IMG/VR virus record: IMGVR_UViG_3300032296_003307 | Span: 124,001-188,000 of that record | Length of the DNA: 64,000 nt | Strand: one strand, 5' to 3' | Source: a virus | Shown: one piece after another, positions 25,251 through 46,407 of the stretch | Position numbering within the stretch: position 1 is the stretch's first letter | How the letters are laid out: each line of letters opens with the position of its first letter | Translations under genes and position numbers: made by a program | The notes under the pieces: model-generated | Databases searched by the model: none | What the model was told of the DNA's origin: nothing | What the model saw: only the letters and a program-made list of their open reading frames with translations

Positions 25251-25272
25251 TCTATAAAAAGTTTTTCATAAT

Positions 25273-25304
25273 AAACCCCATCCCTTGAAAGGTGGGGTTT
25301 TTTG
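25273..25304 (+). terminator. Rho-independent terminator
   Basis: AACCCCA (25274-25280) and TGGGGTT (25293-25299) with T-run. Confidence 0.8.
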
Positions 25305-25319
25305 TTTTATTATTCACAA

Positions 25320-25568: not shown

Positions 25569-25586
25569 TTTTATATTTATTGGGAT

Positions 25587-25892
25587 ATGAAGTTGATACT
25601 ATCAGAATCCCAACTTGACATGATAATACCTAATCAAATAAAACGTAGGTATTCTGAGTTTGATGAAATTCTTCACGAAATGTTACACAATACGGACTAC
25701 GGTAGTCAGGCGGTTGATTTCTCAAAAAGCGGATATATTAATTATATTGTGGAGGAATTGTTGTATAACACATATCTTCCCGATGGTGATACACTTCTAG
25801 GTGATTTTGAAGATATTTATATACCAATAATAAAATTTTTATTTGGACCAAAAATTGGTATTTTTTGGAGAGAGATGAATAATAGAAAATAA
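25587..25892 (+). CDS. Tagged RR-family small helical protein
   Basis: The protein has 101 residues. Class B leader MKLILSESQLDMIIPNQIKR runs straight into the RR module (IKRRYSEFDEILHEMLH). No clean cleavage site sits at the junction. TATTTAT (25574-25580) at 6 nt. Confidence 0.65.
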   Translation: MKLILSESQLDMIIPNQIKRRYSEFDEILHEMLHNTDYGSQAVDFSKSGYINYIVEELLYNTYLPDGDTLLGDFEDIYIPIIKFLFGPKIGIFWREMNNRK

Positions 25893-25894
25893 TA

Positions 25895-26257
25895 ATGAAA
25901 ATCATTGTCACGGAATCCCAACTAAAATTCTTGTTAGAAGATGAAAACAAGTATGAATCACTTGAAAAGATTGTGTACAAGTTTTTGAAATTGATAAAAC
26001 CAAAAGGTGTTGTTGGTGTTATTTTTCATAATGATGAAGGATACGATGTGCCTTTTGAGGTTTATTTAGTTTTTGACTCTGATTTTGAAATGGGTAATGG
26101 TTCTCAGTATATTAAAATGTTAAACATTAGAGATATGGTTCATGATAAATTAAAAAAAATGTTTGGTATAGATTCATACGTTGGTGGGTTTGTTAACCAC
26201 AAAAATATTGATAATGTTGTAAACAGTAAAGTTTTGTATTTTAATGAACAAACTTAA
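25895..26257 (+). CDS. Tagged small alpha/beta protein, class B leader
   Basis: The protein has 120 residues. MKIIVTESQLKFLLEDENKY (L-L-E). The body is a helix, then strands (GVVGVIFHNDEG, FEVYLVFDSDFEMG), a helix (IRDMVHDKLKKMFG) and a strand. It begins 2 nt after the previous stop and overlaps the next start by 14 nt. Confidence 0.65.
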   Translation: MKIIVTESQLKFLLEDENKYESLEKIVYKFLKLIKPKGVVGVIFHNDEGYDVPFEVYLVFDSDFEMGNGSQYIKMLNIRDMVHDKLKKMFGIDSYVGGFVNHKNIDNVVNSKVLYFNEQT

Positions 26258-26573
26258 AGAAATATCTTTGGCGTTGGAAAAAATTTACAACACAATGGGT
26301 AATAAGTACCTCACTAGTAACTTTATTACAGAACCATTTGAGTTTAAGGTTGACGTTGTAAGAACACCAGGAGATGACTCAATGTGGGATTATGTTATAA
26401 GGGTAAAATCAACACCAAAAATGCCTGAAAGTTTAGAATACAGGGAAAAAACACCGGCATCTGTAGATGGTGTTCACAAATCCGTAGTACAATACAATTT
26501 TAAAAAATACATTAATTATATTGACCCAACTTTTGGTTCCTTCAGGAAAACCGTAGGTCTTGTTTTTGTGTGA
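26244..26573 (+). CDS. Small alpha/beta hypothetical protein
   Basis: The protein has 109 residues, embedded at its 5' end in the previous gene. An N-terminal helix (LALEKIYNTMGNKY) is followed by strands (FEFKVDVVRTPGDDSMWDYV). No leader tag. The layout resembles 25895-26257 and 37341-38186. Confidence 0.6.
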   Translation: MNKLKEISLALEKIYNTMGNKYLTSNFITEPFEFKVDVVRTPGDDSMWDYVIRVKSTPKMPESLEYREKTPASVDGVHKSVVQYNFKKYINYIDPTFGSFRKTVGLVFV

Positions 26574-26589
26574 ACGATATTTATTGTTT

Positions 26590-26853
26590 GTGAAGATTAT
26601 CATAACAGAAGAACAATCTCTTTATTTAAGACGTAGAGATTCAGAAATATACGACTTGGTTAAATATGCAATTGAGTATGTTGACGCAACTGAATATAAC
26701 TACCCTGACTATCTTGAAGAAATTGCGTGGCAAGTTTTCGGACGTATGGCAAGTGACGATAGAAGAGAACAAAACATTAAAGATATCCTTGAGTATGTTA
26801 GAGAAAATTATGGGGAAGATATTAAATCCCACCACACCTATGCCAATGGGTAA
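26590..26853 (+). CDS. Tagged RR-family small helical protein
   Basis: The protein has 87 residues from GTG 26590, 5 nt after TATTTAT (26578-26584). Leader MKIIITEEQSLYLRRRDSEI merges into the RR module (LRRRDSEIYDLVKYAIEYV). The spacing rule selects the GTG over the upstream in-frame ATG at 26560. Confidence 0.65.
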   Translation: MKIIITEEQSLYLRRRDSEIYDLVKYAIEYVDATEYNYPDYLEEIAWQVFGRMASDDRREQNIKDILEYVRENYGEDIKSHHTYANG

Positions 26854-26860
26854 TCCTCAA

Positions 26861-27052
26861 TCAAGGAAGGTACAGGATAAAAATGGCAAATATTAATATA
26901 AGAGTTACTACTCCGCCAACCAAAAATCCAAGGTAATATAAAAAATTATCTACATCAAATGGATTAAATTTACTCCAACCGCCTGAGGCTTTGTATATTT
27001 TGTAAACACTCAGACCAAATAACAACTCAATTAAAATTAATAGTGTACACAT
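26861..27052 (-). CDS. Small two-helix membrane protein
   Basis: The protein has 63 residues. Two hydrophobic helices (CTLLILIELLFGLSVYKIY and YYLGFLVGGVVTLILIFAIF) are linked by a short loop, WSKFNPFDVDNF. The size could fit a holin or an envelope protein, but there is no lysis gene beside it. It lies antisense between two plus-strand genes and no promoter class is clear, so support is moderate. Confidence 0.5.
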   Translation of the reverse strand: MCTLLILIELLFGLSVYKIYKASGGWSKFNPFDVDNFLYYLGFLVGGVVTLILIFAIFILYLP

Positions 27053-27117
27053 ATCGTTTTTTATTTAATGATATTACATATTTTTTGAATTGTCACGTTA
27101 TTGGATATTTATAGTTT

Positions 27118-27705
27118 GTGTATCTTAAACATTTAATAAAAAAGATTATCAAAGAGGAAACCGATTTACCTCCATTTATTCGCAGAAGGTTAAAAACCAC
27201 TGACGAACAAATGTGGAATGAAGTAAAAGCGTTTGCTATGAAAGGGTTTAAACCTGGAAACATTGAGGATACCGTGAGTCGTGCAATGAGAAATACGGCA
27301 TATGAAATACTTGACCCTATAACATCAAGTTTGAGTGATAAAGAGTATTATGAATTAGAAAAAAAAATGATTAGATTCCTGAAGGATAAATATTCAGATA
27401 AACTTATTGAATTTATTAGCGATTTTATCACTCCTGAAGATGACCAATATGATGGGTACAGATACGTATTTGAAAAACACTCAAATTATAGTGGTGGTGG
27501 TGCGGGATTTACTCAAGGGTTTGCCATGTGGGGTGATTTACTCACGGCATATGCGTATTGGTTTCCTGATTTGGATTGGAAAAAAATAAAATCAGACTTA
27601 GACAAAAATCCGACAAATAAAAGAATTAGATTGAAAAACGTCGGTGATAATTATAACATATATAATTATTATTTTTCGGTTATTAAAGTACCGGGTAATT
27701 CATGA
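27118..27705 (+). CDS. Tagged RR-family protein with C-terminal extension
   Basis: The protein has 195 residues from GTG 27118, 5 nt after TATTTAT (27106-27112). Leader MYLKHLIKKIIKEE (I-K-E), then LPPFIRRRLKTTDEQMWNEV (RR module) and a C-terminal domain with a Gly-rich turn (SGGGAGFTQGFAMWGDLLTA). It overlaps the next start (ATGA). Confidence 0.7.
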   Translation: MYLKHLIKKIIKEETDLPPFIRRRLKTTDEQMWNEVKAFAMKGFKPGNIEDTVSRAMRNTAYEILDPITSSLSDKEYYELEKKMIRFLKDKYSDKLIEFISDFITPEDDQYDGYRYVFEKHSNYSGGGAGFTQGFAMWGDLLTAYAYWFPDLDWKKIKSDLDKNPTNKRIRLKNVGDNYNIYNYYFSVIKVPGNS

Positions 27706-28067
27706 ATATTAGAGAACAAATATCAAGAAGTAAGTCGCTTATGGGTATAACCGAATCAAGAGCCCTGAATATTTTCAGACGTAGATTTGACATGTCAAGT
27801 GAAGAGGCAAACAATTATTTTAGGGAGATTGTAGATGAAGGGTATGAGTTTTTTTCTTCACCATGTGAACATGAATCAGGTATGGAATATACAAAACTTT
27901 TCCTTCAAAATTGTGCTTACACATTTGTTTTAAGAACAGTGTACCAACACGAATTTAGTGATATTATACATGAATTGGTTGATGTTGTTTATGAAATGTA
28001 CGCACCTGATTTTTTTGATGATGTATACCGACATTATTTATATGTTAGAAAGGAGGAAGGTTGTTAA
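27702..28067 (+). CDS. Tagged RR-family small helical protein
   Basis: The protein has 121 residues. Class D-like leader MNIREQISRSKSLMGITE (I-T-E). Body LNIFRRRFDMSSEEANNYFR and SSPCEHESGMEY carry both RR-family motifs. Translationally coupled to the upstream RR paralogue. Confidence 0.7.
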   Translation: MNIREQISRSKSLMGITESRALNIFRRRFDMSSEEANNYFREIVDEGYEFFSSPCEHESGMEYTKLFLQNCAYTFVLRTVYQHEFSDIIHELVDVVYEMYAPDFFDDVYRHYLYVRKEEGC

Positions 28068-28069
28068 TT

Positions 28070-28717
28070 ATGAGATTGGACGAACAATTAAATAGAATAA
28101 CAGAAATGATGGAGGACGATAATACCCCATACGCAGTTATTGAAATAACCAAGCCATTATCTTATATGAGTCAAGATTATTATTATCAAGAAGTCCCATA
28201 TTGGAAAACAAAAAAAGATAAGATATACATTAAAAAAGGTCCATCAGGATACAAAACAATATCAACAGACAATATAAAGGTCCTAAAGGTTTTTAAAGAC
28301 GGAGACACTGAAGAATTACAGGATTATTTAAAATCACTCAGAAAGAAAAATAAGTTAAACGAAGTTAATGATGATTGGGGTACAGAAGTCGATGATAAAC
28401 GAAGAAAATCGTACATTAAGATTATTGATAAGTTTATGAAATTAAAATATCCTGGTTTTAATAAAGAGAATGTTGGTGTTTATGAAAATAATGTTGGCAA
28501 TGTTTTATATACCAAATGGTTTGAAGATAAAGGAAGAGCGTTTCTTGAGGATGATAAAAAATTTTATGCTAGATTAGATATGATTAGCCGTGAATTGATA
28601 TTAGAAAGAACAATTTTTGAAGATTTAGAAAAATACTTTGGTGATTTTGTTATGACGTTCGTTATTGATTGGTTTAATCAAGAATTCGGTGAAAATGCCG
28701 AAGGACTAACATTTTAG
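28070..28717 (+). CDS. Tagged two-domain protein
   Basis: The protein has 215 residues. ATG 28070 gives MRLDEQLNRITEMMEDD (I-T-E). The first domain (about 20-95) has short strands (AVIEITKPLSYMSQDYYYQE). The second (105-215) is helical with the KLKYPGF turn also seen in 6639-6890. It is 2 nt after the previous stop. Confidence 0.65.
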   Translation: MRLDEQLNRITEMMEDDNTPYAVIEITKPLSYMSQDYYYQEVPYWKTKKDKIYIKKGPSGYKTISTDNIKVLKVFKDGDTEELQDYLKSLRKKNKLNEVNDDWGTEVDDKRRKSYIKIIDKFMKLKYPGFNKENVGVYENNVGNVLYTKWFEDKGRAFLEDDKKFYARLDMISRELILERTIFEDLEKYFGDFVMTFVIDWFNQEFGENAEGLTF

Positions 28718-28723
28718 AACAAT

Positions 28724-29191
28724 ATGAAATTAATAGAGTCCATAAAAGAAATATTAAAAGAGGAATCTGAACTGAAGACCAAAGTTGAAAATATGGTTAA
28801 AAGCAGAGGAATTGAATTCGCATCAAAAATGCTTGGAGATTTAGATAACGTCATTAAAATTTTGGGTTTAGACATTAATAATGTTGATGTCCAAGAAGAA
28901 CTTGTTAAGAATTTCATTATGTTTTCAAAAGATGTGGACCCTGATATAGATGTTAGTTTTATTAAGGTTTCAAGAATATCAAGAGGAACGGTAATTGCAC
29001 CATTTATTGTTAACGCAAGAGAATATGCTCTTTTTTCAAACGCCGCTAGTCTTTTTGACAGAACAGTTTGTGAACTTATGAATGATTTTTTTCCTTTTAA
29101 AACAGAACCTATATGGGAATTTGATAGAAATAAAAGTAACGATACCAAAATATTTATTAATTCAGTAGAACTAAACGAAGACGATGACTAA
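28724..29191 (+). CDS. Tagged protein, class E leader
   Basis: The protein has 155 residues. MKLIESIKEILKEE (L-K-E). The body has a long acidic helical part and a beta segment (DIDVSFIKVSRISRGTVIAP). It lies 6 nt after the upstream stop in the 27118-29497 operon. Function unknown. Confidence 0.7.
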   Translation: MKLIESIKEILKEESELKTKVENMVKSRGIEFASKMLGDLDNVIKILGLDINNVDVQEELVKNFIMFSKDVDPDIDVSFIKVSRISRGTVIAPFIVNAREYALFSNAASLFDRTVCELMNDFFPFKTEPIWEFDRNKSNDTKIFINSVELNEDDD

Positions 29192-29209
29192 GACCAATAA
29201 AAATTTAAA

Positions 29210-29497
29210 ATGAAAATAATAATAACTGAGTCACAATTAAAATATTTTATTAGACGAAGAGCTAAGTGCATCGAAAATTGGATTGAGAGATTAGAGAATG
29301 GCGATATTATTATGCCATTACTACCAGCCACGTTAAATTGGTCTTCATATAAAATTATATTAATTGCATACGCCCTGACCCATTGTGGTACAAATGTTAC
29401 CAAATATGATGAAGAAAAATTTAATTCGGTTGAAGAAGAATTTGGTGACAGATTATTTAATTGGTACGTAAACGAAAAAAATAGAACAACAAAATAG
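29210..29497 (+). CDS. Tagged RR-family small helical protein
   Basis: The protein has 95 residues. Class B leader MKIIITESQLKYFIRRRAKC merges directly into the RR module, as at 25587 and 26590. Body ENWIERLENGDIIMPLLPAT is helical. Last gene of the operon. Confidence 0.65.
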   Translation: MKIIITESQLKYFIRRRAKCIENWIERLENGDIIMPLLPATLNWSSYKIILIAYALTHCGTNVTKYDEEKFNSVEEEFGDRLFNWYVNEKNRTTK

Positions 29498-29547
29498 TTT
29501 TTTATTTTGGTAATTTTTAATATATTTGCATAATAAATTTAATTATT

Positions 29548-29787
29548 ATGTCAAAACCAATATTTGTCGTTAGATTCCCATATTCAGAAGAAAAAAGAGA
29601 TGTTTATTTGAATTTTGTTAAGCGAATATCCAATCAATTAACCGACTATCACGTTTTAGCTCCTATGGATAACAGTGTCGAGCGTGTTGAATTCGAATGT
29701 TTTAATGTGAAAGATGTGCCCGAAACGGAAATTAATGAAATCAAAGACATGATTTCCAATATGTTGGAAGAAACAAAAAACAAATAA
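29548..29787 (+). CDS. Small untagged conserved-type phage protein
   Basis: The protein has 79 residues. MSKPIFVVRFPYSEEKRDVY, a strand-helix-strand layout ending in an acidic helix; I associate this type with small early proteins of large phages. A host-type TATATTTG (29521-29528) lies 19 nt upstream, one of the few with a leader. No tag. Function unknown. Confidence 0.65.
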   Translation: MSKPIFVVRFPYSEEKRDVYLNFVKRISNQLTDYHVLAPMDNSVERVEFECFNVKDVPETEINEIKDMISNMLEETKNK

Positions 29788-29788
29788 T

Positions 29789-29965
29789 ATGTTTTCTATT
29801 TGGTTAAAGGGTACAATTGTGTTTATTTTTGGACTTTGTGTTCATGACACAATAAAAACACGAAAGGAAATTCGAAAAGGTAACGTTCAATGGGTTGCGT
29901 GGAAAGGAAAATATGATTCTGTTTATTTAAAAAAACAAGAACAGTTAAAAACCTCACAAAAGTGA
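29789..29965 (+). CDS. Tiny membrane protein
   Basis: 58 residues, ATG 29789: MFSIWLKGTIVFIFGLCVHD, one hydrophobic helix, then a basic tail (TRKEIRKGNVQWVAWKGKYD). It starts 1 nt after the upstream stop and its own stop lies inside the terminator stem. Confidence 0.6.
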   Translation: MFSIWLKGTIVFIFGLCVHDTIKTRKEIRKGNVQWVAWKGKYDSVYLKKQEQLKTSQK

Positions 29966-29973
29966 GGTTTTTT
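29947..29973 (+). terminator. Rho-independent terminator overlapping a stop codon
   Basis: AAACCTCA and TGAGGTTT arms (29948-29955, 29963-29970) and a T-run. The stop codon of the tiny membrane gene is the first three bases of the second arm. Confidence 0.8.
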
Positions 29974-29996
29974 TTTACCGTATATTTATATTGTGT

Positions 29997-30977
29997 ATGA
30001 GAATTATTGATGAATATAAAAAAAGGTTCTTTATATTGTTAGAGTCTGAAATGGGTGATGTAAAACCCATTACCAATGACACTGAAGAATCCGACGCCGA
30101 ATCTGTTGTATCAAAAATTGAGGGTGGTGATTTTGAATCTTTGAATAATATGCCGGTTGACATGGACTTAGCAAAAGAAGTCCTACAAATTCTTTCAACA
30201 GAGGACCCGCAACTTAAAGAAAAACTTAAAAATTACATTCAAAGTCAAACCTCAGAACTATCTGAGGGTATAAATAAAAGGTCACTTTTATATGCTCTTG
30301 GATTTTTATTGTTTAGTTCTGGAGTTGCCGTTGGATACAATATAAAAGGAGATTCATCAAACAAAGAAACGGTAAAAACAGAAGTTAAACCTGAAGGTTC
30401 TGTTTCATTTGAAAACGCCCAAAAAATTGTTAAAATTAAAGAGGGTGGTTATCAAAAAAATCGTACTGATGCGGGTAACTATATAAAAACAAAAAGAGGT
30501 AAAAAATTAATTGGAACCAAATATGGTATTGCCGCACCAACATTACAAAATTGGTTCAGAAAAACTGGTAAAATTTCTAAAAAAGAAACAATAACTAGTG
30601 AAGATATGAAAAATTTGGACTACCAAACCGCAACAGAAATTTTTAAAAATGAGTATTGGGATAAAAATAATTTGGATGTTTTAAACAATCAGTCTTTTGC
30701 AAACTTAATATATGATGGAGTTGTTATTCATGGACCAAATGGAATGGCGGAGGCATTAAATCAGGCTTTGGAAAATCAAGGTCTTGAATCTCCGAGCGGA
30801 TTCTCTAATAAATTTAACGTTATAAATGATTTGGATACGGAAGAGCAAGAAAAACTATTCAATCAGATAAAAAAAGAACGAAACGATATATTATTATCAC
30901 AAAGTAGAGCAGAAAGAAGAGAGTTTGGTGATGGTTGGGATAATAGATTAAACTCTTTTGTGTATTCACCAAATTAA
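29997..30977 (+). CDS. Tagged, membrane-anchored GH108-type muramidase
   Basis: The protein has 326 residues. ATG 29997 gives class F leader MRIIDEYKKRFFILLESEMG, then DVKP (L-L-E). A Ser/Glu-rich segment, a membrane helix (about 97-115, LLYALGFLLFSSGVAVGY) and a lysozyme-like domain from about 135 follow: KIKEGGYQKNRTDAGNYI with E149 in the EGGY motif of GH108, GTKYGIAAPTLQ, and a C-terminal domain of the PG_binding_3 kind. It may be an injected cell-wall enzyme rather than the lysis enzyme, since a GH19 endolysin is separate. TATTTAT (29983-29989) is 7 nt upstream. Confidence 0.75.
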   Translation: MRIIDEYKKRFFILLESEMGDVKPITNDTEESDAESVVSKIEGGDFESLNNMPVDMDLAKEVLQILSTEDPQLKEKLKNYIQSQTSELSEGINKRSLLYALGFLLFSSGVAVGYNIKGDSSNKETVKTEVKPEGSVSFENAQKIVKIKEGGYQKNRTDAGNYIKTKRGKKLIGTKYGIAAPTLQNWFRKTGKISKKETITSEDMKNLDYQTATEIFKNEYWDKNNLDVLNNQSFANLIYDGVVIHGPNGMAEALNQALENQGLESPSGFSNKFNVINDLDTEEQEKLFNQIKKERNDILLSQSRAERREFGDGWDNRLNSFVYSPN

Positions 30978-30979
30978 AT

Positions 30980-31010
30980 TTTGATAATAAAAAAATTATT
31001 ATTACCTTTG
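30980..31010 (+). promoter_or_regulatory. Host-type -33/-7 promoter (TTTG-N19-TACCTTTG)
   Basis: TTTG 30980-30983 and TACCTTTG 31003-31010 are 19 nt apart; the -7 box ends 4 nt before ATG 31015. Confidence 0.7.
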
Positions 31011-31014
31011 TGAC

Positions 31015-31401
31015 ATGGGTTCAGTTATTAGTTATGTAGATTGTCCTAATTGCGGACAAGAGTGTTATGATGATTATTATTATAAGACAAATGAAAGTTA
31101 CGTAAATTGTGGTAATTGTGGATATCATCATTCAGTAACATTATCGGATGTTGAAAAAAATTGGGAGGATATTACTCAGGACGATTATATCATCACTGAA
31201 ATAAAAAACCCTTATGGTTCTTACAAATACAAATATATTGGTGATGTTGCAACCATTTTTGGTAGTTTGGAAAACGAAGAACAGGCTGAAGAATTTAAAA
31301 AAGAGATGATTTCCGAACAAGAAACTATAGAATTTGCTCAAATAAGTAGATATGTTAATGGCGAATTTTCAATAATATCATTAGTTGAATCTACAAAATG
31401 A
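31015..31401 (+). CDS. Untagged zinc-ribbon protein
   Basis: The protein has 128 residues. CPNC (Cys 10, 13) and CGNC (Cys 32, 35) form a treble-clef or ribbon. An acidic alpha/beta part follows, with YKYIGDVATIFGSLENEEQA. It has a host-type promoter and overlaps the next gene (ATGA). Possibly an early transcription or DNA-binding factor; unproven. Confidence 0.65.
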   Translation: MGSVISYVDCPNCGQECYDDYYYKTNESYVNCGNCGYHHSVTLSDVEKNWEDITQDDYIITEIKNPYGSYKYKYIGDVATIFGSLENEEQAEEFKKEMISEQETIEFAQISRYVNGEFSIISLVESTK

Positions 31402-31664
31402 GTACCGAAGGTGAATTAAAATTCAGAAGAAGAGTTGAGACGGTTTTTTCCGATATGGTAGATACTTTTTTTGCCGATGGAGAACCGTGTAAATTAAGTC
31501 CTGAAATGTTTACAAGAAAATTAGTGTTTATGGTATTACACGAATATAATCACCATTACCCAGATAATAATTACGATTTTTTTGAATTTAAGGATATGTT
31601 AATGGAGTATTTAGAACCAAAAGCAATTGCGGTTTGGAACAAATACTGTAAGAACAAAAGGTAA
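31398..31664 (+). CDS. RR-family protein without leader
   Basis: The protein has 88 residues. MSTEGELKFRRRVETVFSDM begins directly with the RR module; EPCKLSPEMFTRKLVFMVLH is the Cys motif. It is co-transcribed with the host-promoter gene at 31015, in line with the rule that untagged genes use host promoters. Confidence 0.65.
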   Translation: MSTEGELKFRRRVETVFSDMVDTFFADGEPCKLSPEMFTRKLVFMVLHEYNHHYPDNNYDFFEFKDMLMEYLEPKAIAVWNKYCKNKR

Positions 31665-31685
31665 TCAACATACTATTTATAGTTT

Positions 31686-31940
31686 ATGGGAAAAACTATA
31701 AGATTAACAGAGTCTAAATTGGTTGAGTTAATTGAATCTATAATAAAAGAAGACTATTACGATTCAAACAAATTATATAACCGTGAATATATTGTTTTTA
31801 AATTAAAAAACGGACCTAGAGAATTAAGAAAATATATTAAAACTTTACCTGAAATTGAATGTAGAGATAGTCAGGGTAATAAGGCGATATGTACTAAAAT
31901 ACCACAAGTTATTCATGTTTTTTTAACAGGTAACTATTAA
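31686..31940 (+). CDS. Small tagged protein, class A leader
   Basis: The protein has 84 residues. MGKTIRLTESKLVELIESII then KED (I-K-E). A short basic domain follows (YIVFKLKNGPRELRKYIKTL). TATTTAT (31674-31680) at 5 nt. Confidence 0.65.
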   Translation: MGKTIRLTESKLVELIESIIKEDYYDSNKLYNREYIVFKLKNGPRELRKYIKTLPEIECRDSQGNKAICTKIPQVIHVFLTGNY

Positions 31941-31952
31941 CAAAGTTTTATT

Positions 31953-32402
31953 ATGGAATATTCACCACAACAAAAAGATGCGGTTTTTAAATATTGGAAC
32001 AAATTGGGTCCTAATGTTAATGCTGGAAAATATTTTGGTTTGGACGAAAGTACCACAATAGAACTATTACATGAATTTTGGAATTCTGACGGTAAAAATT
32101 TAATGGTTGAATTGATAACGTTTGTAAGAAAAGCGGTTTCAGACTTCAAAGAATGTAATGGTGATGAATTCTCTTTAACCTTTGATTATGTGGTACCATA
32201 TGGTGCCGGTAATTATTATGAAGTTGGTTTTAGATTAAATCTGAATTCACCTGTTTTAGATACTCAAGATTGGGATGATTGGGAAGACCTAAGAACCTTA
32301 TATGGTCAAATAGAAACCTGTGTTGAAGACATGTTAACCCCTCTTACATGGAAAAAACACGGTTTAATCTGTGGTCAGGCAAACATGTTAGAATTTATTT
32401 AA
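31953..32402 (+). CDS. Untagged hypothetical protein
   Basis: The protein has 149 residues. An N-terminal helix-turn-helix-like part (SPQQKDAVFKYWNKLGPNVN, GKYFGLDESTTIELLHEFWN) is followed by an acidic domain (YYEVGFRLNLNSPVLDTQDW). It lies 12 nt after a tagged gene, without its own recognisable promoter. Confidence 0.6.
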   Translation: MEYSPQQKDAVFKYWNKLGPNVNAGKYFGLDESTTIELLHEFWNSDGKNLMVELITFVRKAVSDFKECNGDEFSLTFDYVVPYGAGNYYEVGFRLNLNSPVLDTQDWDDWEDLRTLYGQIETCVEDMLTPLTWKKHGLICGQANMLEFI

Positions 32403-32403
32403 T

Positions 32404-32682
32404 CTACTTACCCATCCCACTCAAAATAACTTCGTAATAATTTTGGTTTGAACAATAAGCATATGCCTGTTCGGACACTTTATTATACATAAAATCTTCC
32501 AAAGTAACCTCGTCACAGTTTGGTCTACCGTTCTTTATTACATATTCTATAACTGAAGTGTGTAGGTCATCTTTGATTCCACTCTCCACAGACTCATCTT
32601 CTAAATTATTTAGGTCCATTTCATTCAAAAGTCCCATTCTTTTCTTTATCTTTGTAATCTCTTCAAAAACATTGTTTCTCAT
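32404..32682 (-). CDS. Tagged small protein, class D leader
   Basis: The protein has 92 residues. MRNNVFEEITKIKKRMGLLN then E (L-N-E). The acidic spacer and NGRPNCDEVTLEDFMYNKVS segment resemble the second half of the RR family. TATTTAT on the minus strand (32688-32694) at 5 nt. Confidence 0.65.
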   Translation of the reverse strand: MRNNVFEEITKIKKRMGLLNEMDLNNLEDESVESGIKDDLHTSVIEYVIKNGRPNCDEVTLEDFMYNKVSEQAYAYCSNQNYYEVILSGMGK

Positions 32683-32687
32683 AAGAT

Positions 32688-32713
32688 ATAAATATCAAAA
32701 TAAAACTATTTAT
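32688..32713. promoter_or_regulatory. Divergent pair of TATTTAT promoters
   Basis: The minus copy (32688-32694) is 5 nt from ATG 32682. The plus copy (32707-32713) is 9 nt from ATG 32723. Confidence 0.55.
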
Positions 32714-32722
32714 CAATAAATC

Positions 32723-33550
32723 ATGGAAGACCCAATTAAATATCAAACAATACGTGAATCAATCAACTTGAATGATTACGACGCAGAAGATTTTGTTGAA
32801 GTGTTCATTTATGTTTTTAGAGATTGGGTTAAAAAAAATGTACCACAAAAAGAATCTGAATACCCAATATCGTACCTATTCAAAAAATATAAGGACAAAT
32901 TTTGTGAAGATATGGGTATTGAAAAGTATATTACATACAGCCAAAGAGCTTTTCAAACTTTGGGTAGACGATTGGTTGAAAAATCATTATACAAACTTCC
33001 TGATTTTACCCCACAAGAAAAATGGACTTCAAAACCTGTAAATCAAAAAATATTAAATTCTTTGATTGGTAAAATGAATTTACCACCTTACATTACTCTT
33101 AAAATTGATGAAGAAAAAAACTACAATGTTACGATATTACCGACCATAGATTTGTCTGAAAGTCTTAAATCACCCATTAAAAACGAATTTTGGGGTCAAT
33201 CAATACCAACAAAACTAATGGGATTGATTAAAAAATATGGTGCGGTAAAATTAGGTAAATCAACACTAGGTGAATTGGACTTAGAAATATATACACCATC
33301 AATTAACGACAAGGGTTGGGATAAGGAATTTAAAAAATTAAGAAAGGAAACTATAGAACATATTGAATCATTAAAAACCGAATACAGAGGTAAAATTAGA
33401 CAGTTCTTTTTTGGTTTCGAATGGGGTAGACCATGTGTTTATTTGAGATTTAATACTTGGAGATTTCACACCGAAATTATTAGAGAAGTTGAGGGATTTT
33501 TACAAAAAAAGGGTTACAATACCGAAAACTTAATAGTTAGGGAAAAATAA
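32723..33550 (+). CDS. Late hypothetical protein
   Basis: The protein has 275 residues without a clear cleavable leader (MEDPIKYQTIRESINLNDYD). It is helical at the N-terminus (VEVFIYVFRDWVKKNVPQKE). The C-terminal domain is basic with strands (FFFGFEWGRPCVYLRFNTWR). TATTTAT-driven, so likely a late or virion protein. Confidence 0.6.
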   Translation: MEDPIKYQTIRESINLNDYDAEDFVEVFIYVFRDWVKKNVPQKESEYPISYLFKKYKDKFCEDMGIEKYITYSQRAFQTLGRRLVEKSLYKLPDFTPQEKWTSKPVNQKILNSLIGKMNLPPYITLKIDEEKNYNVTILPTIDLSESLKSPIKNEFWGQSIPTKLMGLIKKYGAVKLGKSTLGELDLEIYTPSINDKGWDKEFKKLRKETIEHIESLKTEYRGKIRQFFFGFEWGRPCVYLRFNTWRFHTEIIREVEGFLQKKGYNTENLIVREK

Positions 33551-33577
33551 TAGATTTACTTGGTATATTTATAACAT

Positions 33578-34423
33578 ATGTCAAGGACAATCATTTTATC
33601 ACAAAAAAATTTATCATCTATTGTCAGTAGATTAATGTCTGAACAATTAAATGAGATTAAAAAAGACGTTAACCAAAAACTTTGGAACGTTTATAGAATT
33701 CCGTCAAATATAGGCGCCAATGGGTACACAATATCCTCTAATTTTGATGAGACAAATGTTCTTAATTCTATCATAGCATTTTCTAAAAATAAGTGGAAAG
33801 AAGGAAATACCGTTGTTTCTACTGAAGATGAAGATGGTTCAGGGTACCTATTCAAATATATAATATACCTAATCAATAAAACCGTTAAAGACAATCCAAG
33901 AATTGCTAGTACAAAAATGAGATTCACTCAAGAAATTGCTAATAATTTTGGACCTGTTGAAAAAGTAAATGATGAACCTCTTACAAAAGCCGACGCCGAA
34001 ATGTTAAAAAGGAATGAGGCTAAAAGAGATATAAATTCATTCAAAAGAAAAGGTGCTGCAATATTTAGGGAATTTGAAAAGGCGGGTATCGACAAAAAGT
34101 CTTTATCAAAACTAACAAAAAACTTCCAAGAAACAATTTTTGATTTGTTTAAGTGGGATGAGTTACAATATTATGCAGAAGACGATGGGTTATTGTTATA
34201 CCACAAAGGAGCGTTTGAAAAACTTATGGACACAAATCTTCCCGATTCATTAAAGGCGGATTTAGAGTCAGTAGAAAATAATCCCGAAAACGCCATAGAC
34301 CCAGAGACAGGTAAAAAGTTCCCTTATAAATTAAAAATGATTCCAAAGGACTCTAAAATTTATAGAACCATTACCGGTATTTCAGGTTTTGCTCCCAAAA
34401 AAATTATTAAACAAAAGTTTTGA
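33578..34423 (+). CDS. Tagged protein, class A leader
   Basis: The protein has 281 residues. MSRTIILSQKNLSSIVSRLM then SEQ. The middle is helical (RDINSFKRKGAAIFREFEKA) and the C-terminus is Pro/Lys-rich with no known domain. TATTTAT (33566-33572) at 5 nt. Probably a processed internal virion protein. Confidence 0.7.
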   Translation: MSRTIILSQKNLSSIVSRLMSEQLNEIKKDVNQKLWNVYRIPSNIGANGYTISSNFDETNVLNSIIAFSKNKWKEGNTVVSTEDEDGSGYLFKYIIYLINKTVKDNPRIASTKMRFTQEIANNFGPVEKVNDEPLTKADAEMLKRNEAKRDINSFKRKGAAIFREFEKAGIDKKSLSKLTKNFQETIFDLFKWDELQYYAEDDGLLLYHKGAFEKLMDTNLPDSLKADLESVENNPENAIDPETGKKFPYKLKMIPKDSKIYRTITGISGFAPKKIIKQKF

Positions 34424-34465
34424 TTTTGGGTCTAATTACATTATTTTTGAATAAAATTAAAAATC

Positions 34466-34606
34466 ATGTTGGGGTCCTTAATTACAATATTTTTATTTAT
34501 TCTGATTTACAGTTATGTAAGTTGGACACTTCCTTTACAAAATTTTAAAAACAAGAGTTTTTCAGAAAAAAAAGAAGTCGTTAAAAAACTAAAAGATATG
34601 GATTAA
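34466..34606 (+). CDS. Tiny single-pass membrane protein
   Basis: 46 residues from ATG 34466: MLGSLITIFLFILIYSYVSW, then a basic helix (EKKEVVKKLKDMD). Host-type TATTTTTG (34442-34449) lies 16 nt upstream. No tag. Confidence 0.55.
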   Translation: MLGSLITIFLFILIYSYVSWTLPLQNFKNKSFSEKKEVVKKLKDMD

Positions 34607-34639
34607 AATTTAATCTATAACTTAGGTATTTATAGATAT

Positions 34640-35206
34640 ATGAAGATTATAATCAAAGAATCTCAATTACCACTTTTATTAGAAAACCTTCAATTTGAAG
34701 AGGTGTATAAAAAAACATACCCGAAGATTTTTAATGCGGTATGTATGAGATATGCTAAAGGTGATTATGATTTGGCGTCAGAATATTGTCAATTAGGGTT
34801 TATTCAAGTTTATAAAAATTTAGATAAGTACGATAATTTAGGTAGTTTAGAAGGTTGGGTTAGAAGAGTTGTTACAAATATTATAATTAACGAATTGAGG
34901 TCACAAAAAAGAAAATTGGACACTGTTCCTGATTTTGAAGTGGATTTAGAAAAATTAGACCTTTCGCAAGAACCAGAAAGTTTTGAAGAAATTTCTTACA
35001 TGGGTAAATACCCCGAAAGTTTAATTAGAGCGGCGGTTAATTCTTTACCTGACGGATACAAATATGTTTTCTACAATTATTATTTTGGTGATAAAAGTCA
35101 TAAAGAAATTGCGGATGATTTGGGTATTAAAGAAATTACGTCACGCACCCAATTACACAAAGCCAAAAATTTAATTAAAAACTACTTGGAAAAACATTCA
35201 AAATGA
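34640..35206 (+). CDS. Tagged ECF-type sigma factor
   Basis: The protein has 188 residues. Class B leader MKIIIKESQLPLLLEN (L-L-E) is fused to a sigma-70-like protein. Region 2 lies at about 20-92 (ASEYCQLGFIQVYKNLDKYD, SLEGWVRRVVTNIIINELRS). Region 4 lies at about 132-182 (NSLPDGYKYVFYNYYFGDKS then HKEIADDLGIKEITSRTQLH). No region 1 or 3, as in ECF factors. TATTTAT (34627-34633) is 6 nt upstream. The leader suggests it travels in the head and could redirect host RNA polymerase on entry, or supply late transcription. Both are inferences; the sigma fold is well supported. Confidence 0.85.
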   Translation: MKIIIKESQLPLLLENLQFEEVYKKTYPKIFNAVCMRYAKGDYDLASEYCQLGFIQVYKNLDKYDNLGSLEGWVRRVVTNIIINELRSQKRKLDTVPDFEVDLEKLDLSQEPESFEEISYMGKYPESLIRAAVNSLPDGYKYVFYNYYFGDKSHKEIADDLGIKEITSRTQLHKAKNLIKNYLEKHSK

Positions 35207-35298
35207 ACAAAATAATAATATTCATATTGTCTTTAATACCTGGTAGAATTATATGGTTATTTATCCCAAAGGATAAAAACGACAGTTGGTTAATGTAA
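35203..35298 (+). CDS. Tiny hydrophobic peptide gene
   Basis: 31 residues from ATG 35203, overlapping the sigma-factor stop (ATGA): MNKIIIFILSLIPGRIIWLF then a short charged tail. Its coupling to the sigma gene suggests co-expression. It could be a membrane anchor or partner; too short to judge. Confidence 0.45.
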   Translation: MNKIIIFILSLIPGRIIWLFIPKDKNDSWLM

Positions 35299-36276
35299 TT
35301 ACAAACCAAACCTTCCTTTTTGGGCTTTGTAGTTTTGAAGTACTTCAACAGAAGAGAGAGCTCGGTTATAAATTAAACCTATAGCTATATTACCATTTAA
35401 CAATTGACTAGAACCTCCAAAAAACCCTCCACAACCTAATTGTGCCTCTACATTATTATTTAAAAATTTTGTAGTTGTTGTTAAAACTGCTGAACCGTTT
35501 AAATAAACTATAGTATTATTTGAAGGAGTACCTGTGTTTGTGGTAAAAGTCATAGCTACATTTTTCCAAGTTCCGTCGGCAATATTAATTCCTGTACTTC
35601 TAGTTCCCCCACCACCCCAATCATAAGTAACTAATACACTATTTTCTGTAAACAATGCGTAGTTATTCTGTTTTGTTATAATTCCCCTAAAGCTAGAACC
35701 AGGAGACGATGTTTTGACCCATGCTGATATTGTTCCTTGATTTATTTGTAAACTAGAATTATTACCGCAACTAACATAATCATCGGCACCATCAAATACA
35801 ATTGAACCACCATTAGATGAGTTAAATGTTGGTCCATTCACTAATCCCCCATTATTGTTATTTCCGCTCAAATCATACCAAGCGGTTGCAGTGGTTGGAT
35901 ATGACGGAGTAAAACCGGCGTCCAAATTTAGAACCAAACCATTCGTTACTATTCCTTCATATTCTCTGTTTACACAAAACTTATCTGTTTGAGTTACATA
36001 ATAAGTTAAACATTGTGCCGATGTAGTATATGAAGTTCCTGCAATCTTATTTGTAATTGAAACCAATTCACTTTGATTGGATGCCCTATAAATCGCGGGT
36101 CCGTTTGACTCCTTATTTAAATATATTGTAAACCCTCCAGATACAGGGTTATATGATGTGTAATATCCTGTGGTTGAAGTTGGTCCTTTACCATCATTTA
36201 TTGGACCCAACCAAAAATTACCAATTTTAAGTGCGTTCGTTTGAGCGTTGGTACTGTATTTTATATAATTTGCCAT
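35299..36276 (-). CDS. LamG/concanavalin-like appendage protein
   Basis: The protein has 325 residues from ATG 36276 (MANYIKYSTNAQTNALKIGN). The C-terminal about 190 residues form a LamG-type jelly roll: AWYDLSGNNNNGGLVNGPTF, SIVFDGADDYVSCGNNSSLQ, GTISAWVKTSSPGSSFRGII, WKNVAMTFTT, YLNGSAVLTTT, GNIAIGLIYNRALSSVEVLQ. Such domains decorate phage heads or tails and bind glycans. TATTTAT on the minus strand (36283-36289) at 6 nt supports this box as the late promoter. Confidence 0.85.
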   Translation of the reverse strand: MANYIKYSTNAQTNALKIGNFWLGPINDGKGPTSTTGYYTSYNPVSGGFTIYLNKESNGPAIYRASNQSELVSITNKIAGTSYTTSAQCLTYYVTQTDKFCVNREYEGIVTNGLVLNLDAGFTPSYPTTATAWYDLSGNNNNGGLVNGPTFNSSNGGSIVFDGADDYVSCGNNSSLQINQGTISAWVKTSSPGSSFRGIITKQNNYALFTENSVLVTYDWGGGGTRSTGINIADGTWKNVAMTFTTNTGTPSNNTIVYLNGSAVLTTTTKFLNNNVEAQLGCGGFFGGSSQLLNGNIAIGLIYNRALSSVEVLQNYKAQKGRFGL

Positions 36277-36328: not shown

Positions 36329-36730
36329 ATGAAGATAATATTATCAGAAACCCAACTTTCAAAACTTATTAAGTTATTAAAGGAGGAAATTGACCTTCCA
36401 GAATCTCCTGCAAGAAGGGTGTATAATATCCTTATGGAAAAAGGATATTTAAATGAAAATTCAGAAGTAAATGTTGGAACAGACACATTAGAAATTTATT
36501 CTTTACCGTATCCCGCACCTGAAGAATACTTTACCGATTATGACGGATATCTTATAATAGTTGTACCTTATCTTTTTGAAGACGAAGGTGGAACTGAAAT
36601 ACAATTTGAAGATGAAAATACTAAAGAATCTAGTCAAGCACGTTTTGAAGTTAAGGACTATATTGCTTCTACATGGGACTTGGATTTTCCAATTGATTTT
36701 GACGATGATTATCTATCTTTTTCTATTTAA
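36329..36730 (+). CDS. Tagged acidic protein, class B leader
   Basis: The protein has 133 residues. MKIILSETQLSKLIKLLKEE (L-K-E). LPESPARRVYNILMEKGYL precedes an acidic beta domain (EEYFTDYDGYLIIVVPYLFE). TATTTAT (36317-36323) at 5 nt. Function unknown. Confidence 0.65.
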   Translation: MKIILSETQLSKLIKLLKEEIDLPESPARRVYNILMEKGYLNENSEVNVGTDTLEIYSLPYPAPEEYFTDYDGYLIIVVPYLFEDEGGTEIQFEDENTKESSQARFEVKDYIASTWDLDFPIDFDDDYLSFSI

Positions 36731-39325: not shown

Positions 39326-39352
39326 TTCTATTTGCTTGTATTTATTATCAGT

Positions 39353-42300
39353 ATGGCATGTTGTAAATATCAATTTTTATCAAATAGACTGTTTCCGGTT
39401 ACGGTTAATTGGACCGCTTGTGACGGACAAAAAAAATCTACAATTTTAAGAAGAAATCGTCCAATAACCGTTTGGGCAATTTGTGGAACCGCACAACCTA
39501 GCAGATTTGCCACATTAATTTTAGAGTGTAAATGTGTTGGACTTAAAATTGAAAAGCAACCAATAGTAACATCAGGTAGGACCACTTTTGTTCAATTTAC
39601 AGATTGTTATGGAAACCTACAAAAAAAGGAATTGACCGATAGTTCTCCTGTAATAAACGAGTGTGGTTGTAGAGGAACCACAGCTAGTGCAGATATATAT
39701 AGTGTTAGTGAATTTGGTGATTGTTCTAAAGGAGGATTGATTATACCAACCCCTACACCAACAAAAACTTCAACATTAACACCCACATTAACCAAAACAC
39801 CAACCTCAACACCAACTCCAACAAAAACAAAAACCCCAACTCCAACTCCAACAAACACAAGTACAACAACACCATCAAATAGTCCACAAAGTACACCATG
39901 TTTAAGTTTTAGTTTGACACCAAGTAATAGTGCAACACCTAGCACAACACCATCAACAACACCGACAACAACTCCTACGGTAACAACAACAACTTCACCA
40001 ACACCGACTAAGACTGCAACACCATCACCAACTGCGTGTGAGTGTAAGATTTACCAATTCAGAGTCAGACAAACTGATTTAAACAGTGCCACAGGGAATA
40101 CACAATCGTGGATTAATAAAACAGTATTCGGGTTCATGGGTAACTGTGCACCAACTTGCAATCCTGACCATTGGCAATCAACAGGGTTTGTCGTTCCTGA
40201 TGGTTATATTGGTTCAACCGCAACATCAGATATTATCTATGAATGGTGTCAACCATTAACAAAATTACAACAAGACGATAATAACGGATTTGTTACACCA
40301 CCTTACATTTATTTTTACTACTATCAAAATGGTGTTAAAATAACAGGTATATCTACAACTTATACTGCAACCACAGAATGTTGTACCGAACCTGTAGTTT
40401 ATGGTGGTAATAGACAAGGAATTTATTCTTTGACTGAAGAGGGAGGGGCTCCTTCTACACCATCGACAGGACAAATAGAATTTTTTAACTCCGGTGTAAC
40501 ATATAACATTGGTGAAATTACAGGATTTTCATTTACATTGGTAGATGCGTTGGACCAAAATGTTGGTCAACCAAATGACGGTACAGGAAATTGTTATTCA
40601 GTAACCAACCTATCAAACGGAGGTGGGTCAATTTATTTTACACAGAGCGGTGTAACTTTTGGGTTTAGCGGAACCTCCTCAAGTTTTGTGAGTAACGCAA
40701 CAGGGTTTAGTGGTTCTAATTTGACATTAATTCAATCAGGAGGAACATCTTTCTTTTCAGGATTATCCGTAAATATGACATTTAACGTTAATCCTTACCC
40801 AACAGTAACACCAACAAGTAACCCAACTGTAACACCAACCAAAACACCGACCAAAACACCAACACCAACAGTTACACCAACTTATACCGTTACAAGTACA
40901 CCTACTGAAACCGCAACCAACACACCAACACCATCTGTAACACCAAGTCCAACAGAAACTTATTATTGTAGACAATGTCCATCGGGCACAACATGGAATG
41001 GTACTTATTGTGTTGGTAACATATTTTCATCAACATCTGCAACTACTGCATATTCGGCCTTTACCTTTACCTCAGGTTCCACATTAGCGGCGTTTGGTCG
41101 TTGGGGCACCATTTTTTACGAAGATATAAGTGGATATACCTTACCATTAACTTTTTATAACGGTGATTACCCGACAGGGGGTATTATTGCGTATTCAGGT
41201 TCAAATACAACAATATTTAACGGATTACGAGACTCATCAACATTTATAAATTCTTTCACATCCATCGCTTCGGGTAATTTTGATTCTAATTCTGGCGGTA
41301 CTGAAGTACAACGACAAATAGTCGTTAATAATGGTAATGCTCCGACATCACAATTATGGTCAAGTCTTAATAATTCCGATTACGGAAGAATTAATCAGGC
41401 CGGTGTACAAAACGCCGCAGGATTTTTGACAAATGAATGGTGGGGTTATTATGTTTGTGTTGAATTGACCGCAACAACACAATTACATCTATTAATTGGT
41501 GGTGATGACCTTTATAGATTAAGAATGAATGAAAATTTTATAATCTATAAAAATGGTGCAAATCCGCCATCGGTAACTCTTAATGGTGTGACTTATGCAA
41601 ATGCTGGTAGATATGCCATCACAAATGCTGCGGGTCAAAACATTAGCTTTTTTAATCAAATTTGTTTACCTATAACGTTGACCGCAGGAACTTATATATT
41701 CCAACCCGAGTTTATGGATACAGGAGTTCAATATACTACAGGAGTATTTGAAATATACTCAGGAGTATCAACATCAACATTAACAGGTCTTACAACAAAT
41801 ACACAACTATCACCATATATTTTACATTCTTCAGAAAATTTAAGAGGTCAAACAGTTAGCATGATTAAATATTCAGGAAATACTTTTGGTATTTTCTGTC
41901 CACCTAACTATACACTTGGTTTTAGTTCTTGTACACCATATTGTGTTTATGGAAATACAATACAACAACCCTGTCCTACTGTTACACCATCAACCACACC
42001 TTCAAATACACCTACTACGACTCAAACACAAACACCAACACCAACTGAAACTCCAACCTTAACACCAACACCAACGGAAACTTTAGGTATAGAAGGATAT
42101 GTTGCACAACCATGTTGTGGTGGTGGACAAATAGAAATAAATATTCAAGGTAACGGCACATTTTTAGGGCAGTCTTTTTCGTTGGCTAATCAATGTTGGA
42201 CTATTATTTTACCGCTGGGTACATCGGTAGTTGGTCCAACTATAAATGCAACATATTTGTTTGAGTCTGGTTGTACACAATGTTTTGATAGTACTTATGA

Positions 42301-43198
42301 CTATTGTCCATCTCAGACACCAACGGCATCAATAACTGCAACACCTACCGAAACTCCGACTATGACACCAACAACAACGGTAACAAAAACACAAACTAAG
42401 ACACCAACACCTACAAAAACTGCTACTAAAACACCAACACCTACAAAAACACCTACAATGACACCAACACAAAGTAAGTCGGCGTGTTATTGCACAACAT
42501 TTAATATAAGTAAACACGATATTGAATTCGCTTCAGGGAATACAGATAACACTAATGGTAAAGTATTTGCGGTTGTGTATTTGTGTGGTGAAAGTCTACC
42601 ATCAACGTTAGAATTTAATTTTGGAGACACCTATAGAAGGTGTATTGGTCAGTTCTTCTACTTTTATTTAAATAACAACAATTCTGTTTATCAATCTTAC
42701 GTAAATCCTGAATATTTTAGTTCAACAACAATAACATCTCAAACCGCATGTGATAGTGATGAATTCTGTTGTGGTTTTGTACCATCTCAAACTAGAACGC
42801 CAACAAACACTCCAACACCAACAAGTTGTTTGGGTTCATGGAATAGCGTGGCGTTACTTTCAGAATTTTCTGACACCATTTGTAATGGTAACACTATTAG
42901 GTCAGGAAAATTAGAACGAAGAAATTTGGTTCAGTATACAAATAATTGTAGAAATTTGAGTTCAATACCTGCTAACTGCAAGTGGTACCAAGATTATTAC
43001 ATATATTCATGGGATAATAATTGTAATAAAATTACAACTGTGGTTACTGAACAATACCAACCAAACACGGCAAATACTGTTATAAATTTAGGATATATAG
43101 AAGAAACGGTTGGGTGTGAAAATTGTAATAGAGTTGTGGTAAAAAAACCTGTACCTGGCACATTAAGAAATAATTGTGGTATTCCTTTTAAACCGTAA
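39353..43198 (+). CDS. Giant Pro/Thr-linked adhesin or tail-fibre protein
   Basis: The protein has 1281 residues from ATG 39353 (MACCKYQFLSNRLFPVTVNW). The start follows TATTTAT (39339-39345) by 7 nt. An N-terminal Cys-rich module (TVNWTACDGQKK, ITVWAICG) is shared with 43209 and 46408. At least five globular blocks are joined by long (T-P)n linkers (TPTPTKTKTPTPTPTNTS type). One block (YYVCVELTATTQLHLLIGGD onwards) resembles PA14-type carbohydrate-binding folds. Many Cys pairs suggest disulphides. A surface receptor-binding or adhesive appendage is likely. Confidence 0.8.
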   Translation: MACCKYQFLSNRLFPVTVNWTACDGQKKSTILRRNRPITVWAICGTAQPSRFATLILECKCVGLKIEKQPIVTSGRTTFVQFTDCYGNLQKKELTDSSPVINECGCRGTTASADIYSVSEFGDCSKGGLIIPTPTPTKTSTLTPTLTKTPTSTPTPTKTKTPTPTPTNTSTTTPSNSPQSTPCLSFSLTPSNSATPSTTPSTTPTTTPTVTTTTSPTPTKTATPSPTACECKIYQFRVRQTDLNSATGNTQSWINKTVFGFMGNCAPTCNPDHWQSTGFVVPDGYIGSTATSDIIYEWCQPLTKLQQDDNNGFVTPPYIYFYYYQNGVKITGISTTYTATTECCTEPVVYGGNRQGIYSLTEEGGAPSTPSTGQIEFFNSGVTYNIGEITGFSFTLVDALDQNVGQPNDGTGNCYSVTNLSNGGGSIYFTQSGVTFGFSGTSSSFVSNATGFSGSNLTLIQSGGTSFFSGLSVNMTFNVNPYPTVTPTSNPTVTPTKTPTKTPTPTVTPTYTVTSTPTETATNTPTPSVTPSPTETYYCRQCPSGTTWNGTYCVGNIFSSTSATTAYSAFTFTSGSTLAAFGRWGTIFYEDISGYTLPLTFYNGDYPTGGIIAYSGSNTTIFNGLRDSSTFINSFTSIASGNFDSNSGGTEVQRQIVVNNGNAPTSQLWSSLNNSDYGRINQAGVQNAAGFLTNEWWGYYVCVELTATTQLHLLIGGDDLYRLRMNENFIIYKNGANPPSVTLNGVTYANAGRYAITNAAGQNISFFNQICLPITLTAGTYIFQPEFMDTGVQYTTGVFEIYSGVSTSTLTGLTTNTQLSPYILHSSENLRGQTVSMIKYSGNTFGIFCPPNYTLGFSSCTPYCVYGNTIQQPCPTVTPSTTPSNTPTTTQTQTPTPTETPTLTPTPTETLGIEGYVAQPCCGGGQIEINIQGNGTFLGQSFSLANQCWTIILPLGTSVVGPTINATYLFESGCTQCFDSTYDYCPSQTPTASITATPTETPTMTPTTTVTKTQTKTPTPTKTATKTPTPTKTPTMTPTQSKSACYCTTFNISKHDIEFASGNTDNTNGKVFAVVYLCGESLPSTLEFNFGDTYRRCIGQFFYFYLNNNNSVYQSYVNPEYFSSTTITSQTACDSDEFCCGFVPSQTRTPTNTPTPTSCLGSWNSVALLSEFSDTICNGNTIRSGKLERRNLVQYTNNCRNLSSIPANCKWYQDYYIYSWDNNCNKITTVVTEQYQPNTANTVINLGYIEETVGCENCNRVVVKKPVPGTLRNNCGIPFKP

Positions 43199-43208
43199 AA
43201 AATATTAA

Positions 43209-44150
43209 ATGTCTTATACGTGTATTAAATATACCGTTCAAAATATAAGTCCAATTATACCTGTCACAATAACATGGCGTGGTTGTAATGGATTAACTAG
43301 AACTCAAACACTTAGAAAAAAAAGTTCAATAAGTATATGTGCGTTAAATAATTCTGTTAAATCCAGTATCATTAGGTTAACAAATATAACAAGAAATTGT
43401 AAACCAACTAATGAATGTGTAAATTATTTGGTAACAAATAATAGTAGTTTTTATCAAACATTTGAGTATGTTGACTGTCAAACACCTATGCCGGGTTTGG
43501 GATTTGTTAATAATAAAACAAGAGGCGTAGAACCAGGTCAAACAATTTCAGTTTGTATGTGTGTACCATGTTTAAGTGCATCGGAAAATTTTAATTTTAC
43601 TTTAGAAAAAAAACAACCATGTGTTAATGGTTTACCTGTAACCCCAACACCGTCACCATATAATTGTTTTAGTGTTATAAGTTATGAACCACCAAATCAA
43701 GACACGTTGGTTTTATTTACAGACTGTTGCGGAAACACTAGACAGTTTGTTGCTGATGTTAATTCAAGCGGATACGGTACGCCACCTGAATTTTGTATAC
43801 GAAAAAATTCGGCAATTAGTAGTTTGAAAAGTGTTCTTTATCAAGACCCGTGTGTACAAACTTGTGGAACGCCAACCCCAACACCGTCAGTGACATCAAC
43901 ACCCGCAACAACGCCAACCAATACACTTACACCAACACCGACACCAACAAAAAGTTTGACACCAACACCAACAAAAACACAAACCAATACACCGTCAGTA
44001 ACATTAACGCCCACAAAAACACCAACCAATACTCCTTCAGATACACCAACCCCAACCCCTACTCCAACACCAATAATATTGAATAATCCAATATTAGTTG
44101 GTGAGGATGAATATTTAAATGTTGGGGATAATCAATTTTTACAATATTAA
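43209..44150 (+). CDS. Adhesin paralogue with Pro/Thr linker
   Basis: The protein has 313 residues. The N-terminal module [20 protein letters not shown] is followed by [20 protein letters not shown]; Cys-rich modules follow, then a [20 protein letters not shown] stalk. The short C-terminus [19 protein letters not shown] may be a tip or attachment peptide. It is 10 nt downstream of the giant adhesin in the same operon. Confidence 0.75.
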
Positions 44151-44172
44151 AATTAAAAAACTATAAAATAAA

Positions 44173-46236: not shown

Positions 46237-46242
46237 TAAAAT

Positions 46243-46359: not shown

Positions 46360-46407
46360 TCTAAAATTGATAATTGATTTACATATTATGATGATATTTA
46401 TTGAGGT

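Follow-up and report, generated by a model that had tools for sequence, protein, structure and literature searches.

Packaged RNA polymerases are known from N4 and the phiKZ-like phages, which carry virion RNA polymerases. To our knowledge, a takeover of transcription in the first minute by phages without an RNA polymerase of their own is known mainly for T4, by means of Alt. This protein is packaged and acts on the host RNA polymerase upon entry (PMC9026906). The internal proteins of T4 enter the head via N-terminal propeptides of 10 to 19 residues, the capsid targeting sequences (CTSs), which are cut after L/I-X-E by the prohead protease gp21, and the propeptide of gp23 comprises 65 residues (PMC9026906). 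A literature search, with most subscription journals outside its scope, found no packaged sigma factor; such a protein, if it existed, would be a direct way of first-minute transcription takeover. Described here is an ECF sigma factor from a jumbo phage of bacteria of the Bacteroidota type. Its N terminus resembles a cleavable head-packaging tag and is conserved in related phages, which suggests that the virus may deliver a preformed transcription factor together with its DNA.

The window, which is the whole stretch of DNA analyzed, has a length of 64,000 nt and represents positions 124,001 to 188,000 of the record IMGVR_UViG_3300032296_003307; coordinates are given in window numbering. The sigma factor gene on the plus strand, 34640 to 35206, is an intact ORF of 188 codons with an ATG start and abundant stop codons on the reverse strand. 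A sequence-only reading had noticed regions 2 and 4 of an ECF-type sigma-70 factor in the 188-aa product, and both were borne out by Pfam matches of about 5e-11 and above the curated cut-off. Sigma70_r2 (5.7e-11) covered residues 33 to 91 (34736 to 34912, plus strand), where a core-binding-type motif, Q51-x-x-F54, is retained, and Sigma70_r4_2 (4.2e-11) covered residues 128 to 176 (35021 to 35167, plus strand), with the helix-turn-helix HKEIADDLGI..TSRTQL of the Bacteroidota-ECF type. The best PHROG match was PHROG 1740, "RNA polymerase sigma factor" (1.2e-21). The top sequence matches in the PDB were the ECF sigma factors SigE (4e-11) and SigW (2e-9), and the sequence and fold matches taken together were ECF sigma factors including SigE, SigW, and SigH. 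With sigma regions 2 and 4 only, a length of about 190 aa, and structure matches to ECF proteins, the ORF is by its domain content a two-domain ECF sigma factor, and a protein of this kind would bind bacterial core RNA polymerase and direct it to specific promoters. The gene is flanked by two tiny ORFs, 34466 to 34606 and 35204 to 35299, each of which encodes a hydrophobic stretch; the second overlaps the sigma stop codon (ATGA).

Region 4 (HKEIADDLGI..TSRTQL) and the segment SLEGWVRRV resemble those of ECF sigma factors of the Bacteroidota. The bacterial relatives found were from a Saprospiraceae bin and from Mangrovimonas, both Bacteroidota, and the closest annotated phage records were "sigma-W" genes of crAss-like phages with 25 to 30% identity. 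Most of the leaderless ECF sigma factors compared begin with the usual L-I...G-D...A-F segment, the place of which is occupied by the leader in the window sigma. The structure prediction that had been proposed as a check gave an ECF-like AlphaFold model of middling confidence (pLDDT 69) with a disordered start, a short helix at residues 7 to 13, a break at residues 14 to 16, and then the first sigma-2 helix, so that the break in the helix coincides with the predicted cut site.

This leader, MKIIIKESQLPLLLE, comprises codons 1 to 15 (34640 to 34684, plus strand) and would be a head-targeting propeptide cleaved after Glu15 of the LLE motif. The N terminus of the sigma was compared with the N termini of 357 ORFs from pieces of the record, with shuffled sequences as controls. 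It resembles those of other ORFs (MKIIVTESQLKFLLE, MKIIIAESQLKKFIE, MKIIITESQLKYFI, and others) with a score of 51, compared to a maximum of 47 and a 99th percentile of 41 for the best of 357 shuffled N termini. The closest match was the leader MKIIVTESQLKFLLE of the same class on an unrelated ORF (25895 to 26257, plus strand), and a downstream ORF preceded by a TATTTAT motif (36329 to 36730, plus strand) also carries a leader of this class, MKIILSETQLSKLIKLLKE. A total of 61 of the 357 ORFs were above the 99% shuffle level, and 48 remained once signal peptides and true paralogs had been removed. These 48 leader ORFs represent several classes, among them MKKVVRLTESDLIRIVKRVIKE, MKIIITESQLKFLLE, MNLQENISRIKEMMGLLIE, MKRFVITEDEKKSIKGLYG, and MKNINDYKKRFYNLME, which differ in sequence, yet mostly end in [LI]xE. 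This motif was present within residues 10 to 25 in 79% of the leader ORFs, compared to 38% of their own shuffles (standard deviation, 6) and 20% of the other ORFs, while [LI]E, [LI]xD, and [LI]xQ were not enriched in the same 48 ORFs and [LI]xK, [LI]xR, and [LI]xxE only slightly. Four of about nine ORFs of the MKIII-ESQL type in the window have no [LI]xE near the end of the leader.

A resemblance of this kind may also be a by-product of recombination, if a 5' cassette of promoter and first codons is copied between genes with no function of the peptide. The leaders indeed accompany the same promoter and start context, and fusions and swaps occur among the orthologs of the sigma described below. 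In the first 10 codons of the class B leader, however, the synonymous sites were near saturation (pS of 0.97) while the amino acids were kept (pN of 0.11), which indicates that the leader is conserved as a protein and not as DNA; in class A, pN/pS was 0.40 within the leader and 1.05 over the next 22 codons. The common [LI]xE end of leader classes with different sequences is also left unexplained by such copying, which is considered highly improbable and is the least likely of the explanations given here. The class B leader ending in L-L-E that had been reported from the sequence thus withstood the comparison with shuffled controls, is conserved at the protein level, is common to unrelated cargo proteins, and is kept in orthologs. 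It agrees with the T4-type format of an N-terminal propeptide of 10 to 19 residues with an L/I-x-E end, and one type of propeptide is found on several different cargo proteins, as expected for a T4-type CTS.

Other cargo proteins with recognizable domains were also present. A glycoside hydrolase 108 (muramidase) domain follows the leader MRIIDEYKKRFFILLE at 29997 to 30977, and a P-loop kinase/AAA-like protein with the leader MNLQENILRIKEVMGLLSE is encoded at 9136 to 9891. A polyphosphate kinase 2 (Pfam, 1.8e-71) at 53799 to 54923 has a leader-like N terminus, MWELLSEVKKMKGMMGLLKE, is preceded by TATTTAT, and is possibly a candidate for an injected metabolic enzyme. Three ORFs of 1,288, 313, and 481 aa at 39332 to 47853, adjoining the leader region, all match PHROG 15511, a group of unknown function, and these common matches point to a related family. 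Comparison of the leader cargo with a defense library yielded only weak P-loop matches. A tblastn search with the bare leader of 23 aa, a query too short for this purpose, found nothing, and simple patterns identified no leader-bearing ORF in the 150 kb of Flavobacterium phage immuto that were examined.

Cleavage of the leader would be the task of a T4-type prohead protease. The record encodes two S77-family proteases, which are of this type, and also two capsid proteins of the gp23 type. Among 69 sequences related to the first of these capsid proteins, [LI]xE was present at positions 9, 36, and 51 in 96, 96, and 80%, respectively. In 78 relatives of the second, LLE6, IKE23, LYE51, and INE60 were present in 99 to 100%, with INE60 in all 78, and the latter site is located at about the cut position of T4 gp23 when judged by the length of the gp23 propeptide. 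Given the proteases and the conserved [LI]xE sites of the capsid proteins, it is very likely that both the enzyme and the rule for its substrates are present.

The protease and the head proteins with conserved [LI]xE thus occur in the same record as the sigma, albeit in a record that may be a composite. It contains 268,739 bases, and bases 1 to about 120,000 are collinear with phage immuto, while bases 124,000 to 268,739 harbor most of the leader genes, the second head module, and a gp55-like gene. Two complete T4-like head modules of different types, each with terminase, portal, S77 protease, scaffold, and capsid genes, are located outside the window at record positions 25,000 to 35,000 and 228,000 to 238,000. 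The collinear first half and the two head modules mean that the record may be composed of two phages. Most other large leader-bearing records possess a protease with the size and match range of the second type, and the second type of capsid protein was also present in two of them (the records of L193 and L258), so that the second half is the part to which the leader belongs, whether the record is a composite or not. Leader and S77 protease co-occurred in modest excess in records of more than 100 kb, 23 of 31 compared to 4 of 10 in an AT-rich random set, and this was set aside as too weak to prove a link.

Further evidence came from orthologs. A search of IMG/VR with the single window sigma sequence found no relatives. 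A first relative with 41% identity was found in a leader-bearing record, and an alignment of both sequences, used as the query against IMG/VR, yielded nine loci. All nine orthologs found carry a leader; they are 40 to 43% identical and represent three or more distinct groups of sequences. Including the window sigma, four architectures were present: an LLE end at 15 residues in the window, LTE at 19 residues (L480 and L481), ILE at 16 residues (L482), and a fusion (L483 to L488 and also L477) composed of a leader, an "FDPTG" domain of about 120 residues, a second leader, MKLNESKLYKILTE, and then the sigma. In all of them, the residue after [LI]xE is N or D, and the same phenylalanine of the sigma helix is located 3 to 4 residues beyond the motif, with the junctions LLE-NLQF, LTE-NVNF, ILE-NKF, and LTE-DVDF. 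A cut site that stays in register despite the changing upstream peptide is the strongest evidence for processing. The contigs of the orthologs are fragments of at most 73 kb, and neither the protease nor gp23 was found on them. Fusion as a sequencing artifact was rejected because it was seen again in several differing contigs. At L483:2527-3537 and similar loci, a single ORF comprises two leaders, a "FDPTGLVDIGNAISYW" domain, and, downstream of this domain, the fused ortholog, and the product is possibly a polyprotein cut at [LI]xE. More distant ECF sigma factors in leader-bearing records, L478 (37% identity) and L479 (33%), are without the leader, so that the leader seems confined to one branch.

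A −10-like element of a late-type promoter, TATTTAT, is located at 34627 to 34633 on the plus strand, 13 nt before the ATG of the sigma gene. This motif, preceded by A or G, was present 11 to 13 nt upstream of the ATG in 51 of the 357 ORFs, sigma gene included, and was commoner on leader genes (23 of 48) than on the others (29 of 309; P of 1e-9). Host-type promoters, TTG...TAnnTTTG, were present for genes that are likely early; their TAnnTTTG element preceded none of the 48 leader genes and 11 of the 309 others, a difference that was not significant. The TATTTAT motif (11 to 13 nt, 51 ORFs) and TAnnTTTG (12 to 13 nt, mostly 12, 11 ORFs) were both at a nearly fixed distance of 12 nt before the ATG, with examples in the window at 17414 to 17426, 34627 to 34640, 31015, and 52635, as expected for leaderless mRNAs.

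The sequence-only reading had proposed TATTTAT as the promoter motif recognized by the packaged sigma, with such promoters active immediately after entry in addition to late in infection, and the motif indeed precedes both the sigma gene and roughly half of the leader-bearing genes. A motif read by this sigma should be tied to the presence of the ECF protein and should be accompanied by a −35 element for region 4. No −35 element was found upstream of TATTTAT in the ORFs of the record, despite region 4 in the sigma, and enrichment of the motif was seen close to capsid genes in relatives as well as in phage immuto, for which no Sigma70_r2 match was found. Moreover, the record contains a separate gp55-like sigma gene (L103, 247 aa) without a leader, and other genes have host-type promoters. 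The proposal found no support in these observations and was set aside as highly improbable. The enrichment in phage immuto and near capsid genes, together with the separate gp55-like sigma, indicates instead that phages of this group use TATTTAT as their late promoter, which is probably of the gp55 type. By analogy with T4, the gp55-like protein is a candidate for the use of such a −10-only late promoter, and the window sigma, which possesses an ECF-type region 4, does not belong to the gp55-like late sigma factors. In upstream regions lacking TATTTA, no ECF-type promoter motif stood out, and host-type TTG..TAnnTTTG was the only one visible.

A late-type promoter on the sigma gene fits packaging, but the sigma may alternatively be produced late and function in that very cell as an additional late or alternative sigma factor, with a leader that serves recruitment to the site of replication or assembly, stability, or scaffold binding without ejection. 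The late-type promoter agrees with this possibility as well, and the literature on phage ECF sigma factors, such as those of phiEco32 and related phages, describes them as regulators within the cell (PMC7881722, PMC8948821). The leaderless ECF of L478 has TATTTAT about 9 nt ahead of its start, which indicates that a late, unpackaged ECF also exists. This explanation would nevertheless leave open why [LI]xE is fixed before the sigma fold in orthologs with different leaders and why leaders of the same kind are present on cargo resembling a muramidase, a polyphosphate kinase, and a P-loop kinase, and it is considered unlikely, albeit with some weight.

The late promoter and the head tag on the sigma gene are best understood as features of a protein that is put into the head for use in the following infection. 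The sigma is therefore rather probably a late-made internal head protein of the T4-CTS kind that loses its leader by a cut after LLE and, once injected, acts on the host RNA polymerase. Its packaging, targeting, cleavage, and ejection, its binding to RNA polymerase, and its early action are what we infer, and the literature search yielded no virion proteomics for any carrier of the leader. A Bacteroidota-type ECF sigma would have been turned by the phage into an internal head protein, with a gene transcribed from the TATTTAT promoter late, during head building. The first 15 residues would act like a T4 CTS and bring the sigma to the core of the prohead, where the S77 prohead protease would cut after LLE to yield a mature sigma starting with NLQFEEVYKK. 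The mature sigma would be ejected together with the DNA into the next host, bind to the host core RNA polymerase, and guide the enzyme to certain promoters of the phage (or the host).

In comparison with known systems, the sigma would work like a CTS-bearing internal protein of T4 with an ECF sigma factor as cargo, judged by the features that both have in common. These are, with respect to the T4 internal head proteins IPI, IPII, IPIII, and Alt and to gp21, the short propeptide ending in L/I-x-E and, in the record, the S77 protease and the gp23-type capsid. The T4 cargo is an ADP-ribosyltransferase or an anti-restriction protein, whereas that of the window is a sigma factor; the leader differs in sequence from the T4 CTSs, and is present on dozens of ORFs compared to four in T4, and the packaging of its cargo is predicted. 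With the ECF sigma factors of Bacteroidota and of phages (crAss-like "sigma-W" and phiEco32/Privateer), the window sigma shares the architecture of regions 2 and 4, 25 to 45% identity, and a region 4 of the Bacteroidota type, but those that were checked have no leader, mostly start with L-I...G-D...A-F, and, where described from phages, are made in the cell. T4 gp55 is likewise a sigma-family protein of a T4-like phage; the window ECF differs by region 4 and the leader, and the gp55-like gene of the record is a separate one. The virion RNA polymerases of N4 and phiKZ-like phages embody the same idea of injecting ready-made transcription machinery, with the difference that a whole polymerase is injected there and, if the sigma is packaged, a specificity subunit for the host core enzyme here. 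The leader also serves as a sequence rule, by which dozens of proteins without known function are predicted to be ejected by uncultivated jumbo phages of a common group. There may be an even chance that a lineage of Bacteroidota jumbo phages packs a pre-made, proteolytically matured ECF sigma as part of a large, interchangeable set of CTS-tagged ejected proteins and captures the host RNA polymerase in the first minute, which would be a third route beside the packaged polymerases of N4 and phiKZ and packaged polymerase modifiers such as Alt of T4.
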